DNA of 64,000 bases, from positions 10,701,817 through 10,765,816 of the forward strand of contig CATQJL010000001.1 in the NCBI GenBank assembly GCA_958299035.1, written 5' to 3'. Under the pieces are notes generated by a model, which was given only the letters and a program-made list of their open reading frames with translations, had not been told where the DNA came from and did not search any database. The stretch comes from Cylicocyclus nassatus. Taxonomy: Eukaryota > Nematoda > Chromadorea > Rhabditida > Strongylidae. The position numbers and the translations under genes are program-made. Positions 18,803 through 42,886 of the stretch are shown here, one piece after another (position 1 is the stretch's first letter; every line of letters starts with the position of its first letter).

Positions 18803-19488
18803 TTAGGTTGTCTCATAATTTTTTTACCGTTTTCTTGGACGTCAGCATTTCTCGAGAACTGGGGCAATAACAAAGGGTATAAGTCCGTGATCGTACTTTT
18901 GTTTGGGGAGGAGCTCAGCGCGTCTAGGGACGGAGTTTACCATTTTGTTCCACTCATTTTTTCTTGATTTCTAGCAGTGGAAAAATACGGAAAGTGTACA
19001 ACTGAATGTTAAATATGTTAAGCATGTACTAGATTGATGGCGAATTTTTCGAAATTTTTTGGCCGAGATAGTATTTTTGGCGGTAAAGTTTGTTTTCAAC
19101 TGATATCATATTGAAGCTCAAACTTTACGCAGAATACGACTTAGGTAGACTCTTGATAGCCATCTTGTAAAGAGGGCTACTAAGAGTCTGCCTAACTCTT
19201 ATAGTCTTATTATTTGTGTCAGAAAAACTAAGTATAACATCTTGTAAAGCTTGCTTTACTTTACGCGGAATACGACTTAGGTAGACTCTTAATAGCCATC
19301 TTGTAAAGAGGGCTACTAAGAGTTAGCCTAAGTCTTATAGTCTTATTATTTGTGTCAGAAAAACTAAGTATAACATCTTGTAAGGCTTGCTTTACTCTGT
19401 CAAATCATGCAAGCCGCATCAGTTTGAAGGAAAAATACAAAAAGACGGCAATTGTAGTAAAAACGGTACAAATTATGAGACGCCCTAA
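18803..19488. mobile_element. Non-autonomous mariner-like element, TTAGGTTGTCTCATAATT ends
   Basis: The left end TTAGGTTGTCTCATAATTTT continues to ACCGTTTT. The right end, reversed, is TTAGGGCGTCTCATAATTTG continuing to ACCGTTTTTA. No transposase. It contains a 136-bp tandem duplication (19124-19395) and three inward-facing copies of the CTTGTAAAGCTTGCTTTACT-type subterminal motif. A plus-strand frame at 19352-19597 runs across the right end and is not a gene. Confidence 0.75.
19124..19395. repeat. Two tandem 136-bp repeats
   Basis: TTTACGC(A/G)GAATACGACTTAG starts at 19124 and again at 19260. The copies differ at a handful of bases and each ends in CATCTTGTAARGCTTGCTTT. The duplication lies wholly inside the 18803-19488 element and multiplies its subterminal motif. 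Confidence 0.85.
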
Positions 19489-38455: not shown

Positions 38456-38820
38456 TGTTGATGATTTCTGGATCATCAACCATTGATGAACTCTATAATC
38501 TGTATAGCCTACGGGATCCCCGTAGGCTAAATGGTGAGCTACTCACTCTCGAGTATCTAATCACTCAAGAGTGAGTGGTACCTGTGCGCCAGGAGTGTAG
38601 CCAATCGGCGGCATCTCCTTTTAAGCACAACTCGTATACTTTGTACCTTGTATTCGGTTTGGCTCCGCCTTTCTTCCTATATAAGGAGCCTCCGAATGTA
38701 TTAGAGGTTGCTCCCCGGTCCACACCGGGACACCTCGATAATCGCTCTCAACTAATCTACGCCAGTGTGAATAAATATTCCACACTACTTCGTCTACCCT
38801 AATTCACTTGGTACACACCA
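38456..38820 (+). repeat. 5' LTR of the BEL/Pao-like element
   Basis: TG...CA ends. The U3 side opens with three successive palindromes: GTTGATGAT-ttctgg-ATCATCAAC (38457-38480), AGCCTACGGG-atc-CCCGTAGGCT (38508-38530), and ACTCACTCT...AGAGTGAGT (about 38541-38577). A TATA box and a polyadenylation signal follow. A 75-codon frame inside it (38575-38802) occurs in both LTRs and begins with a non-ATG codon, so it is not a gene. Confidence 0.9.
38678..38775 (+). promoter_or_regulatory. LTR promoter TATA box and poly(A) signal
   Basis: TATATAAGG at 38678-38686 and AATAAA at 38770-38775 are spaced about 90 bp apart in the 5' LTR, and again at 42744 and 42836 in the 3' LTR. The order TATA then AATAAA places U3-R-U5 in the usual way: transcription would start about 25-30 bp after the TATA, and R would include the AATAAA. 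Confidence 0.65.
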
Positions 38821-38823
38821 AAT

Positions 38824-38836
38824 TGGTGCATCGGCC
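38824..38836 (+). promoter_or_regulatory. Primer-binding site for tRNA-Gly
   Basis: TGGTGCATCGGCC, three bases after the 5' LTR, is complementary to the 3' end of a metazoan tRNA-Gly (…GGCCGATGCACCA). From family knowledge, BEL/Pao elements often prime from tRNA-Gly. The 13-base perfect match is strong support for the orientation and for the LTR boundary. Confidence 0.85.
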
Positions 38837-38845
38837 AGTGAACTT

Positions 38846-39534
38846 CCTTGCAATTCCTGAGCGACTCCTTTACCTAAGGAACGGGAATTCAAGGCCTAAG
38901 ACCCGCGTGGCAGGTACTCCACTAATTGATTGAACCCTTCTGAGCTCTCTCTTCGTGAGACGACCAGAAGTTAGTAAAAGCGTTAGTTGGCAGGCTTCTT
39001 CACTGATTAATTGAACCCCTCTGAGCTCTCTCTTCGTGAGACGACCAGAAGGTAGTAAAAGCGTCAACCGAAGAAATTTCACTGGTCAATTGAACCCCTC
39101 TGAGCTCTCTCTTCGTGAGACGACCAGAAGGTAGTAAAAGCCCCAGCTGAATACTTCTGCACTAATTAATTGAACCCTTCTAAGCTCTCTCTTCGTGAGA
39201 CGACCAGAAGGTAGTAAAAGCGTTAGTTGGCAGAAAATCACTGATTAATTGAAACCTTCTGAGCTCTCTTCCCGTAAGACGACCAGAAGTTGGTAAAAGC
39301 GTCAGCTCAAGAATTCTCACTGGTTAATTGAACCTTTCTGAGCTCTCTTCCCGTGAGACGACCAGAAAGTAGTAAAAGCCCCGGTTGAAGAACTTCTCAC
39401 CATTGATTAATTGAACTCTTTTGAGCTCTCTTTTCGTAAGACGACCAGAAGTTAGTAAAAGCGTCATTTGGTAAGACAAACACCACTGCAAATTGAACAT
39501 CTCTGTGCTCTCTTTACATAAGACGACCAGAGAT
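38846..39534 (+). repeat. Array of one divergent plus eight tandem covarying hairpins in the leader
   Basis: The eight hairpins lie at about 38937-38970, 39017-39052, 39096-39131, 39176-39211, 39256-39289, 39334-39369, 39418-39451 and 39499-39534, with a period of 79-83 bp. Each is an outer stem (CUUCUG/CAGAAG), an internal loop AGCUC/CGAC, an inner 4-bp stem and a 5-base loop (UUCGU, CCCGU or UACAU). The outer stem covaries (CUUUCUG/CAGAAAG in copy 6, AUCUCUG/CAGAGAU in copy 8). The inner stem is UCUC/GAGA in copies 1-4 and UCUU/AAGA in 5, 7 and 8, with a U-G intermediate in 6. GUAGUAAAAG-like and UUAAUUGAAC-like strings flank each. A ninth structure (38846-38894) after the primer site has the same plan with different stems (CCUUGcAAUUCC with GGGAAUUCAAGG, UCCUU/AAGGA) and keeps UGAGC. 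The role is unknown. Confidence 0.8.
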
Positions 39535-39870
39535 CAATAAAGGACCAGTTGGCAATAGCTAACAAGTTCAAAGTTCATCCAGAATTTGAGCTTCAATTGC
39601 TATCAATCCTCACGGTACAGGTTCAACACACCTCACCGCCCAGTACAGCGTACAAGCCAACCAGGCACGCTTGCTGACAGCTAGTAGAAGCTCGGCACTC
39701 AATTGCCAGCTCACTAGAAGGCTTCCTTGCACCCAGTAAGGACAGCTGTTACAAGAGGCCAGCCTTGCTGTCGTCCTCTAAAGTCTACAACGAGGATACG
39801 CATCTCACGTTGCGACGCTCGCCATCAGCACTTAACGGAAGCACCGAACACAACTTTGTGCGATACAAAA

Positions 39871-42363
39871 ATGGCAGCGCTCCAAATCTTCAAATCGAAA
39901 ATCAACAATGCCTGCGCACTTGTGAAATCATACGAGTCGGAAGTGAATAAAATTGACACACCATTCACTTTTCCTGTGGACAAGACTGAATGCGAAACAT
40001 ACATCAAAAGGAAAATGGGAGAAATCACGCATTTGCTCAATTCTCTCCAAAATGCCGTCAGACTTCAAGACACTCAAGTAAATGCCGCAATTGAATATGT
40101 CGGCTCAAGAAACGAGGAAAAAGAGAGAGAAAAGCTGATGACTGAACTCAGCAAACACCTTGAGTTAGAGTCTCTTCATCTGGAGGTCATGGCAGTACAG
40201 TGGCAGAACAAGATCCAGTTCCGACAACATGAACTCAAGGAACAAAGTGCGCTTGTGCACTGCAGTACTCCGAGCATACCGAGTCAGCCAAGTAGCGAAG
40301 TTGGGCAAGCTGGAACTCCGGAACGCAACGAAAGGCAGATCAAAATTCGGAAGCCCATGCTTGAAATTCCGACGTTCTCAGGCAACTTCCGGGAGTTCAA
40401 CAGTTTCTGGACTGTCTTCGAATCACTTATTCACACCGACGAGGAGCTATCCAACACGGACAAGTTCTTGTTTCTGAAACAAGCCTTGAAGGGAAAAGCA
40501 GCAGACACCCTGAGCTGCATTCCCGTTGTTGGAGAAAGATATCAGACAGCGATAGATATCTTGAAAAAACATTTCGATCGCTCTGCCAACATGGCAGACA
40601 TACTCATCAACGAGATCGAAAAACTACCCAGGGCCTCAGATGATCCGAAAGATTGTCGTGGCACCTTTGAAGCAATCAACTCAAGGATTATCCACCTGGA
40701 GCAAACTGGGGCAAAGATGAACGCAGACAGAATTTGGCGTCGAATAATCTTCTCCAAATTTCCCGAATCCATCTGTACGACCACCATCCAGAAAGAAGCG
40801 GTACAAGATGATCCATTTGATGTCAGCGAAATACTGAACACCATCGACAGCATCATTTTACTACGAGAAACAATCTCGCTAACGACGGAGACTCTCTTTC
40901 CAACCGACTACCACTCGAATAACCAAGAAAATGAAAGGAGTACTACATACGAAGAAAACGAACACTTTACGAAACCAGGACGCTTGCGTTTATGTGGACA
41001 ACCACATTCGCCTTATACCTGCCCGAGATACACCACTCCAGAAGCTCGGCGACGTGAAGCGACAAACCAAGGAGCGTGCTGGAGATGTTTCGTAAGAAAC
41101 CACGACTCAAACGCTTGTACGAATACTGGAGTATGCCCTAAATGCCAGAGGTCGCACCACGGATCTCTTTGCATGCCAGAAGAAAGACGACGCAGTGGAT
41201 TCTTCGCACAATCCCGCGATCCTGCAGTCGATCATCAACATTCACCTCCTTGGACACAACATGACACCAACCAGGATTGTCGCGAGATTAGTAACATGCA
41301 CGTCGTACAAGGCTCGGAGAATAAACAAGGAGTCCACATCTCAGACGTACTTCCACTTGCGCACAATCAGTGCGTTCTTCAAATCGCCTCAGCATTGATT
41401 TTCAATGAAGCAGAGTGGGACTACCAACCAACGACCATACTTCTTGACTCCGGGGCGCAACGAAGCTTCATCGAAGCAAGACTCTGTGAAGAACTAAAGC
41501 TTCCAATCGCTCGAACTACTTCTTTCACTACATCAGGAATGGGCGAACATCAAGAGAAATTCAACTCATCTGAAGTGCACATCACCTTGAAGAGTCTTCA
41601 CAGCTCCGAGAAGCTCAAGAAGTTGTCATTGCATACAAAGCAGAAGCTGACTACCGATATGCAGACGGCAAGCCTCACGGAGGCCGACTTGCGTTTCATC
41701 GAAGACGGAAAGCTGATGATTGCTCAGGATACGCTCTCTCACAAAAGCCTTCTACCGGACCTGATCATCGGGCAAGACCTCATAAATCTTGTCATCCTTC
41801 GAAATGAGAGAGTGCTCACGCTCCCCTCAGGGCTCATTTTGACCCCAACAATTTTCGGATACGTCATATCAGGAACAAGTCGCACCGCCACTACAGCAAG
41901 ACCCGTTAGTACCTTCGGCTGCATATCAACGCCACAGGAAACATCTCCGCCAACAAAACTACAACAATTCCCTTCATCTAAAGGAAGGAAACCCAGAAAG
42001 ATGGGGCAGACGCTCAGAGCTTTCATCTTCCGTGAAGCTCAAGCAGACAGACAACGTTGGCTGAACACAATCCGTTCCCTTTCAAACTCTTCCGATGGCT
42101 CTGCGATGATGTCGAATGAAATGACCACCACCTCGTCGTATCTTAGGAAGCAAGCAGAGACAATGATGACAAAGGGCAGACATCACAGAAGTTCACGCTT
42201 TATCAAAACGGCGCCTACCGGGAAGATGACCGTCAATAATGCTTCTACTATGAATTCAAAATCAATGACGAAGAAGAAAAGGCGACGACGACGAGCAATG
42301 CCAAAACGAAATTCGCCTCCATCAACCACCTCAACTGATCATACCATTGTGCATATATTGTGA
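39871..42363 (+). CDS. Gag-protease polyprotein of the BEL/Pao-like element
   Basis: The first in-frame ATG (39871, after AAAA) gives 830 residues; the frame is open upstream to 39727 without an ATG. Domains: an N-terminal helical part; a DUF1759-type gag core at about 155-310 (KPMLEIPTFSGNFREFNSFW, LKGKAADTL); a zinc region at about 375-435 with CGQPHSPYTC, a knuckle CWRCFVRNHDSNAC (CX2CX4HX4C, 403-416) and CPKCQRSHHGSLC; and an aspartic protease (DUF1758 type) with catalytic LLDSGAQRSF (Asp526), ending near GYVISG (663-668). The last 160 residues are not the reverse transcriptase expected there. They form a Ser/Thr/Lys-rich tail with KKKRRRRR at 801-808, possibly an accidental frame beyond a deletion. 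Gag would form particles and package RNA; the protease would process it; pol must come from another element. Confidence 0.85.
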   Translation: MAALQIFKSKINNACALVKSYESEVNKIDTPFTFPVDKTECETYIKRKMGEITHLLNSLQNAVRLQDTQVNAAIEYVGSRNEEKEREKLMTELSKHLELESLHLEVMAVQWQNKIQFRQHELKEQSALVHCSTPSIPSQPSSEVGQAGTPERNERQIKIRKPMLEIPTFSGNFREFNSFWTVFESLIHTDEELSNTDKFLFLKQALKGKAADTLSCIPVVGERYQTAIDILKKHFDRSANMADILINEIEKLPRASDDPKDCRGTFEAINSRIIHLEQTGAKMNADRIWRRIIFSKFPESICTTTIQKEAVQDDPFDVSEILNTIDSIILLRETISLTTETLFPTDYHSNNQENERSTTYEENEHFTKPGRLRLCGQPHSPYTCPRYTTPEARRREATNQGACWRCFVRNHDSNACTNTGVCPKCQRSHHGSLCMPEERRRSGFFAQSRDPAVDHQHSPPWTQHDTNQDCREISNMHVVQGSENKQGVHISDVLPLAHNQCVLQIASALIFNEAEWDYQPTTILLDSGAQRSFIEARLCEELKLPIARTTSFTTSGMGEHQEKFNSSEVHITLKSLHSSEKLKKLSLHTKQKLTTDMQTASLTEADLRFIEDGKLMIAQDTLSHKSLLPDLIIGQDLINLVILRNERVLTLPSGLILTPTIFGYVISGTSRTATTARPVSTFGCISTPQETSPPTKLQQFPSSKGRKPRKMGQTLRAFIFREAQADRQRWLNTIRSLSNSSDGSAMMSNEMTTTSSYLRKQAETMMTKGRHHRSSRFIKTAPTGKMTVNNASTMNSKSMTKKKRRRRRAMPKRNSPPSTTSTDHTIVHIL

Positions 42364-42521: not shown

Positions 42522-42886
42522 TGTTGATGATTTCTGGATCATCAACCATTGATGAACTCTATAATCTGTATAGCCTACGGGATCCCCGTAGGCTAAATGG
42601 TGAGCTACTCACTCTCGAGTATCTAATCACTCAAGAGTGAGTGGTACCTGTGCGCCAGGAGTGTAGCCAATCGGCGGCATCTCCTTTTAAGCACAACTCG
42701 TATACTTTGTACCTTGTATTCGGTTTGGCTCCGCCTTTCTTCCTATATAAGGAGCCTCCGAATGTATTAGAGGTTGCTCCCCGGTCCACACCGGGACACC
42801 TCGATAATCGCTCTCAACTAATCTACGCCAGTGTGAATAAATATTCCACACTACTTCGTCTACCCTAATTCACTTGGTACACACCA
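42522..42886 (+). repeat. 3' LTR of the BEL/Pao-like element
   Basis: A direct repeat of 38456-38820 at an offset of 4066 bases. I see no differences over 365 bp, including the palindromes, TATA box (42744) and AATAAA (42836). It is followed by AAATCCCAAAAAGAAGAG, which is segment-A sequence homologous to 60814 onward in copy C. Confidence 0.9.

Follow-up and report, generated by a model that had tools for sequence, protein, structure and literature searches.

A BEL/Pao-type LTR retrotransposon in the strongylid nematode Cylicocyclus nassatus carries, in the leader between its primer binding site and gag, a tandem array of hairpins, and we have hardly any doubt that this array is kept as a fold. 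Moreover, the leader contains, outside the primer site, a second 13-nt stretch complementary to its tRNA-Gly(GCC), and it is very likely that the leader captures the tRNA at both sites. The element lies within a 64,000-nt stretch of contig CATQJL010000001.1 (called the window hereafter), and its features are collected in Table 1.

Table 1. Features of the element in the window.
Feature	Position	Strand	Basis
5' LTR, 365 bp	38456..38820	+	identical to 42522-42886
Primer binding site, 13 nt complementary to tRNA-Gly(GCC) 3' end	38824..38836	+	Drosophila tRNA-Gly + CCA
Primer-site hairpin (earlier 'ninth structure')	38846..38894	+	folding, leader-type comparison
'Anti-anticodon' site, 13-nt complement of tRNA-Gly(GCC) anticodon arm (tRNA nt 30-42)	38902..38914	+	complement search, loci comparison
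Array unit r1, three-storey hairpin	38919..38999	+	unit alignment, pairing test
Array unit r2	39000..39078	+	unit alignment, pairing test
Array unit r3	39079..39158	+	unit alignment, pairing test
Array unit r4	39159..39237	+	unit alignment, pairing test
Array unit r5	39238..39316	+	unit alignment, pairing test
Array unit r6	39317..39398	+	unit alignment, pairing test
Array unit r7	39399..39480	+	unit alignment, pairing test
Array unit r8, most diverged	39481..39558	+	unit alignment, pairing test
Post-array region common to leader types with different arrays	39611..39778	+	leader alignments
Stem-loop within post-array region	39643..39674	+	predicted on 46 of 64 distinct sequences
gag-protease ORF, 830 aa	39871..42363	+	DUF1759 + weak DUF1758
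3' LTR	42522..42886	+	identical to 5' LTR

The element has direct LTRs with a tRNA primer site, as is typical of BEL/Pao; the LTR end was set by reading at a CA dinucleotide, the run of identity being 367 bp, and no target-site duplication is visible on reading the flanks. The ORF encodes a BEL/Pao-type gag (DUF1759, E 3.3e-25, 89.3 bits against a cut-off of 25.4) and scores slightly below the cut-off of 22 for DUF1758 (aspartic protease, 21.1 bits), and its relatives include an entry named 'Tas retrotransposon peptidase A16'. The best named relatives come from Ancylostoma, Haemonchus and other strongylid nematodes, with an overall identity of 36–58%, and the last 141 residues have no relative at E ≤ 0.01. 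This C-terminal tail (690–830) is basic, and by reading the Ancylostoma relatives P0002 and P0003 likewise end in unrelated basic tails. The pol parts of 22 relatives, with reverse transcriptase and integrase, find no match in the window, where the tblastn matches stop at 42000, and judged by its sequence the window copy is a gag-protease-only member. Elsewhere in the window, positions 19122–19396 hold two copies of a 136-bp unit (95% matching), which are unrelated to the element.

The array comprises eight units of about 80 nt at 38919–39558, with a start-to-start spacing of 79–83 nt, as had been claimed in the initial annotation, which was made from the letters alone. The outer stems named there (CUUCUG/CAGAAG, CUUUCUG/CAGAAAG and AUCUCUG/CAGAGAU) are present in the units, the inner stem runs through the series UCUC/GAGA, UCUU/GAGA and UCUU/AAGA as described, and the middle internal loop, which had been called almost fixed, is invariant in 8 of its 9 columns against 3 of 16 in the basal stem. 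This basal stem (CCA-CUGAU/GUCAG-U-UGG) corrects the picture of a two-storey hairpin with drifting linkers, since it is the linkers that hold it and it covaries as well; RNAalifold, from the alignment alone, returns a nested fold of the two stems already described plus the basal one. One outer pair is broken in each of units 2 (C.A), 3 (C.A) and 4 (A.C), and unit 2 additionally has two broken basal pairs. The words AATTGAAC and AGACGACCAGA are nearly fixed across the units, the apical loops vary, and neither r4 nor r8 keeps the GAGCUC palindrome intact. Within the large internal loop, GAA facing AGUA (38950–38960 and like places in each unit) may form what we take to be a bulged-G (loop E) module; it fits six of the eight units, r5 having GGUA and r8 AAUA. 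A K-turn was set aside, as no tandem G.A pairs are seen by reading, and the idea that the repeat loops are complements of the tRNA T arm (AAUUGAACCC with GGGUUCGAUU, one G.U) was rejected, 54 of 500 shuffled units reaching 10. No match was found in the outside collections searched, namely viral contigs, genome contigs and plasmids.

The support for the array fold is covariation, not energy. Seven units are not unusually stable relative to shuffles (z -0.10 to -0.77; -2.06 for unit 8), nor is the 640-nt array as a whole (z +0.22). In the window units, 92.0% of the 175 cells of the 22 pairs are paired, falling to 29.7–50.6% when the partners are slid, and seven pairs are changed on both sides. 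The 14 double-changed cells compare with 5.0 ± 1.9 in shuffles (0/500 reach this value), with 4.4 ± 1.9 when the null preserves the tree of the eight copies (0/4000) and with 5.6 ± 2.2 when the tree is built from unpaired columns (5/4000). Counting the pairs that show such a change gives the weaker statistic, these two tree nulls reaching the observed value 32 and 128 times of 4000.

The same holds far beyond the window. A DNA search of the 514.7-Mb genome gave at least 46 matches at at least 40 places, and a covariance model built from the eight units gave 310 matches in these 40 stretches, each of which has 6–11 full units. From 310 nhmmer matches, 10 with more than 12 gaps were dropped and the remaining 300 collapsed to 169 distinct units. 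Covariation is not lost across these many elements, and the relatives do not keep the repeats with broken stems, two outcomes that the initial annotation had named as fatal to its proposal: 92.8% of 3507 cells are paired (30.1–52.2% with slid partners; 85.2% in the null on their tree, 1/1000), and there are 240 double-changed cells against 72.9 ± 35.4 in the tree-aware null (0/1000). In the 169 units, 10 pairs show at least one double change where the null gives 7.7, which is not unusual (155/1000).

Moreover, other leader types carry comparable arrays. Of 1879 candidates from a gag protein search, 67 were scored, and the stretches fetched from them, together with the first 40, make 90 stretches, which fall into types A (33), B (16), C (9), D (30, by exclusion) and E (2); tandem hairpin arrays occur in all five leader types of this genome. 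Type C units pair in 96.7% of 307 cells, with 39 double-changed cells against 13.3 (0/500) and six pairs with a double change against 4.6 (80/500). In type E, 95.2% of 126 cells pair, with 5 double-changed cells against 1.1 (0/500) and three such pairs against 0.8 (6/500); the slid control at +2 gives a covariation score of 0.169 against 0.171, yet only 53.2% of its cells pair. Types A and E have a common plan: an outer stem of seven pairs, a single G-C pair set between two bulges, an inner stem of six pairs interrupted on its 3' side by a lone bulged base, and a loop of five bases. In type D a hairpin with the loop CAGGUCNUAUCC occurs at 132 sites in 30/30 stretches, and its stem pairs are mostly kept, 2 of 11 positions pairing poorly; the type D hairpin D3 was excluded from these figures. 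Thus the conserved fold claimed initially stands, while the sense RNA as the folding molecule does not follow, since the wobble counts give no strand: the sense strand has 8 G.U against 6 C.A cells in the window, no clear excess, and about 65 G.U against 99 C.A (hand-summed) in the 169 units of types A/B. These counts are not decisive between sense RNA, the other strand and single-stranded DNA.

The primer site and the anti-anticodon site are the only complements of tRNA-Gly of at least 11 nt on either strand of the window; the tRNA letters were taken from Drosophila (PMC6587125, the part available) with CCA added, and may differ from those of the host's own tRNA. A 13-nt complement was reached by 2 of 3000 shuffled leaders. 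Duplexes at the two sites have predicted energies of -29.4 and -28.0 kcal/mol, compared with -5.0 for the anticodon arm on its own, and the leader's own predicted fold partly hides both (mean unpaired probability 0.25 and 0.41). The primer site was found in 86 of the 90 typed stretches, the others being L053, L063 and L064, where the stretch apparently starts within the array, and L085. In all 86 with a primer site the second site is present with at most three mismatches, 57–79 nt downstream when counted from start to start. Among 78 distinct loci, the anti-anticodon 12-mer is exact in 71, with one mismatch in six and three in one, and it is kept across the five leader types. Most primer sites match the tRNA over 13 nt or fewer, and 75 of the 78 loci fall below the full 18 nt. 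In the other three (L005, L018 and L048) the primer site is the full 18-nt tRNA-Gly complement, as if reverse transcription had freshly copied the primer into it, and, so read, it is evidence of which tRNA serves as primer. Each of the 16 type B stretches (L021–L034, L036 and L038) has an additional T in its primer site (TGGTGCATTCGGCC).

Between the two tRNA sites lies a hairpin that the initial annotation had counted as a ninth structure of the same plan as the repeats. The covariance model of the units finds no match there at E ≤ 10, and the hairpin belongs to the primer site, with a history apart from that of the units; its stem letters and length differ among leader types while a hairpin is kept. 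When ten such spacers were folded, no more than 6 in 300 shuffles matched each of seven, and the other three were not unusual. Downstream of the array, the region 39611–39778 shares 87–89% identity with two leaders of type D, although the arrays of that type cannot be aligned with the window's; it lies within a 93% block shared with type C, part of it is 79% identical in type E, and it is 70% identical to one B leader. Its stem-loop (types A–E) is kept mainly by sequence, with little covariation, and the region is a better candidate than the array for any core packaging signal common to the types. In addition, the leader avoids AUG. From primer site to gag the window leader has none (7.7 expected; 0/1000 shuffles), and across 46 leaders drawn from types A, C, D and E there are 6 AUG in 51,276 nt, 41 leaders being without any, against 614 CAT, which is AUG on the other strand; this is expected if ribosomes scan through to gag.

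The array, the LTRs and gag differ in how similar they are between copies. One B leader is 92% identical to that of the window over units 1–6 (447/484) and 66% in unit 7, with unit 8 unaligned; its primer-site hairpin is 38% identical and its anti-anticodon site matches in 12/13. The gag of one B locus is only 37.9% identical to the window's over the first 252 residues, falling to 30.2% in the zinc-knuckle part, and the window LTR has no match in any of the 16 type B stretches. Likewise, among type A leaders whose arrays are 96–98% identical, L003, L009 and L014 have gags only 76–78% identical to that of the window, in the range seen for type D. Type D gag is 71–81% identical to the window's, with similar LTRs and different hairpins, and type E gag is 63–64% identical. 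The window LTR is 95% identical in one C stretch and 89% in two D stretches, against only 74% and 69% in the type A stretches L005 and L040, and because of these last values the LTRs too seem to be exchanged or to diverge fast. From such different identities across types, array, LTR and gag seem to have separate histories, the array behaving as a cassette. Thus it does not follow Gag/NC, as a packaging signal would, and array types cross gag lineages (for NC, at one B locus). The array had initially been proposed to bind Gag or a host protein; strict Gag specificity is weakened, because array type is independent of gag type.

We propose, tentatively and at slightly less than an even chance, that the leader is a modular structured RNA with a two-site hold on the tRNA, a hairpin cassette and the post-array stem-loop region. 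The two sites would together hold the primer tRNA, since the primer site by itself gives 13 nt of pairing where 18 is usual. The cassette of 6–11 tandem hairpins, with changeable stems and nearly fixed internal loops, would most likely be a multivalent platform for an RNA-binding protein, and internal loops more fixed than stems fit protein binding. The conserved stem-loop region ahead of gag would be the third module. As for what the platform would serve, selection of element RNA for the particle is the likeliest use, and we regard packaging as a possible, still doubtful, main role of the array. The leader holds structured RNA, as a packaging signal does, and the position between primer site and gag, the many copies and the exchange between elements fit packaging; such exchange needs two RNAs in one particle. 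A host-protein use comes close behind, because the type of array bears no relation to the gag downstream of it: the array might bind a host RNA-binding protein for export of unspliced RNA, stability or translation, and hence be freely exchangeable between Gags. Arrays crossing gag lineages fit a host protein as well as Gag, or better, and the free stems around fixed internal loops and the AUG-avoiding leader in the transcript ahead of gag agree with it. We nevertheless think it somewhat unlikely, as it comes with no named partner, as Rfam families give no match at gathering score in the window (the best in the leader having E 0.95) and as type D, with other hairpins in the same place, would require several host proteins or a loose recogniser.

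It is quite improbable that the array mainly aids reverse transcription, through polymerase pausing, strand switching between co-packaged RNAs, or holding of the minus strand or a dimer. The mosaic leaders do point to frequent switching, the number of full units varies among copies, and the conserved pairs exist on either strand, G.U counts showing no preference for the sense strand; pausing, however, needs no fixed internal loops, and the broken palindromes of r4 and r8 and the variable apical loops speak against simple dimers formed by kissing loops or palindromes. A DNA-level array binding transcription or insulator factors, as in the 5' region of gypsy of Drosophila, would also be expected to show tandem sites close to the start of the element with two nearly fixed words, but in types A/B, C and E the letters of the stems change pairwise, which duplex DNA does not need, and this reading is very improbable. 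The least credible account is a functionless tandem duplication whose covariation is inherited relatedness. Basal stems are indeed shared by r1/r4, r2/r5 and r3/r6, like a duplicated triplet, shared ancestry inflates cell counts, and pair counts alone are matched by the nulls as often as given above; but the double-changed cells exceed the tree-aware nulls (0/4000, 5/4000 and 0/1000), and the same bulge plan recurs in type E despite its divergent gag. Returning to packaging, we mention a bolder form of it, which we consider unlikely: the arrays would be interchangeable packaging tags, swapped by strand switching between gag lineages, and gag-protease-only copies would live on them. If this were true, an element could be packed by another's particles, and the leaders would record the trade in tags within one genome, beside a common two-site tRNA-Gly lock.

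To our knowledge, there is no account of the role of BEL/Pao RNA leaders, and in the open-licence literature we found neither such a leader array, of which the initial annotation likewise knew no description, nor a BEL/Pao anticodon site; the available parts of the descriptions of Sinbad and Achilles elements mention neither. If the array reading is true, this is a natural multi-copy RNA-protein binding array with modules swapped among elements; if the tRNA reading is true, there is a conserved anticodon-binding second primer site in a metazoan retrotransposon group, parallel to a debated interaction in HIV-1. Both can be tested with short RNAs. Retroviral packaging leaders (psi) contain several hairpins and are likewise structured RNA between primer site and gag, whereas here tandem copies of one hairpin, variable in number, are exchanged as a cassette independently of gag, and their binding is putative. 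The gypsy insulator of Drosophila, an array of 12 Su(Hw) sites, also places tandem repeats in an LTR element's 5' untranslated part, but its sites are DNA sites, while here the letters of the stems change pairwise. PMC554778 counts BEL/Pao elements among the least studied LTR elements. For the tRNA sites, the closest known systems are HIV-1, in which, in the parts of the reports available, an A-rich loop interacts with the anticodon of tRNA-Lys3 and the pairing between tRNA and genome is extended (PMC3185550, PMC7793103), and Ty1/Ty3, for which the available text of PMC5371799 describes bipartite primer sites for initiator tRNA-Met that involve its T and D arms. In contrast to HIV-1, the second site in the window lies downstream of the primer site with a hairpin between, and is a perfect complement of 12–13 nt whose pairing is predicted here. 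As in Ty1/Ty3, the RNA of an LTR retrotransposon would pair with its primer tRNA beyond the 3' end, here with tRNA-Gly and the anticodon arm, and in BEL/Pao. The predicted tRNA capture would thus parallel those of HIV-1 and Ty1/Ty3, with a different tRNA, arm and order.
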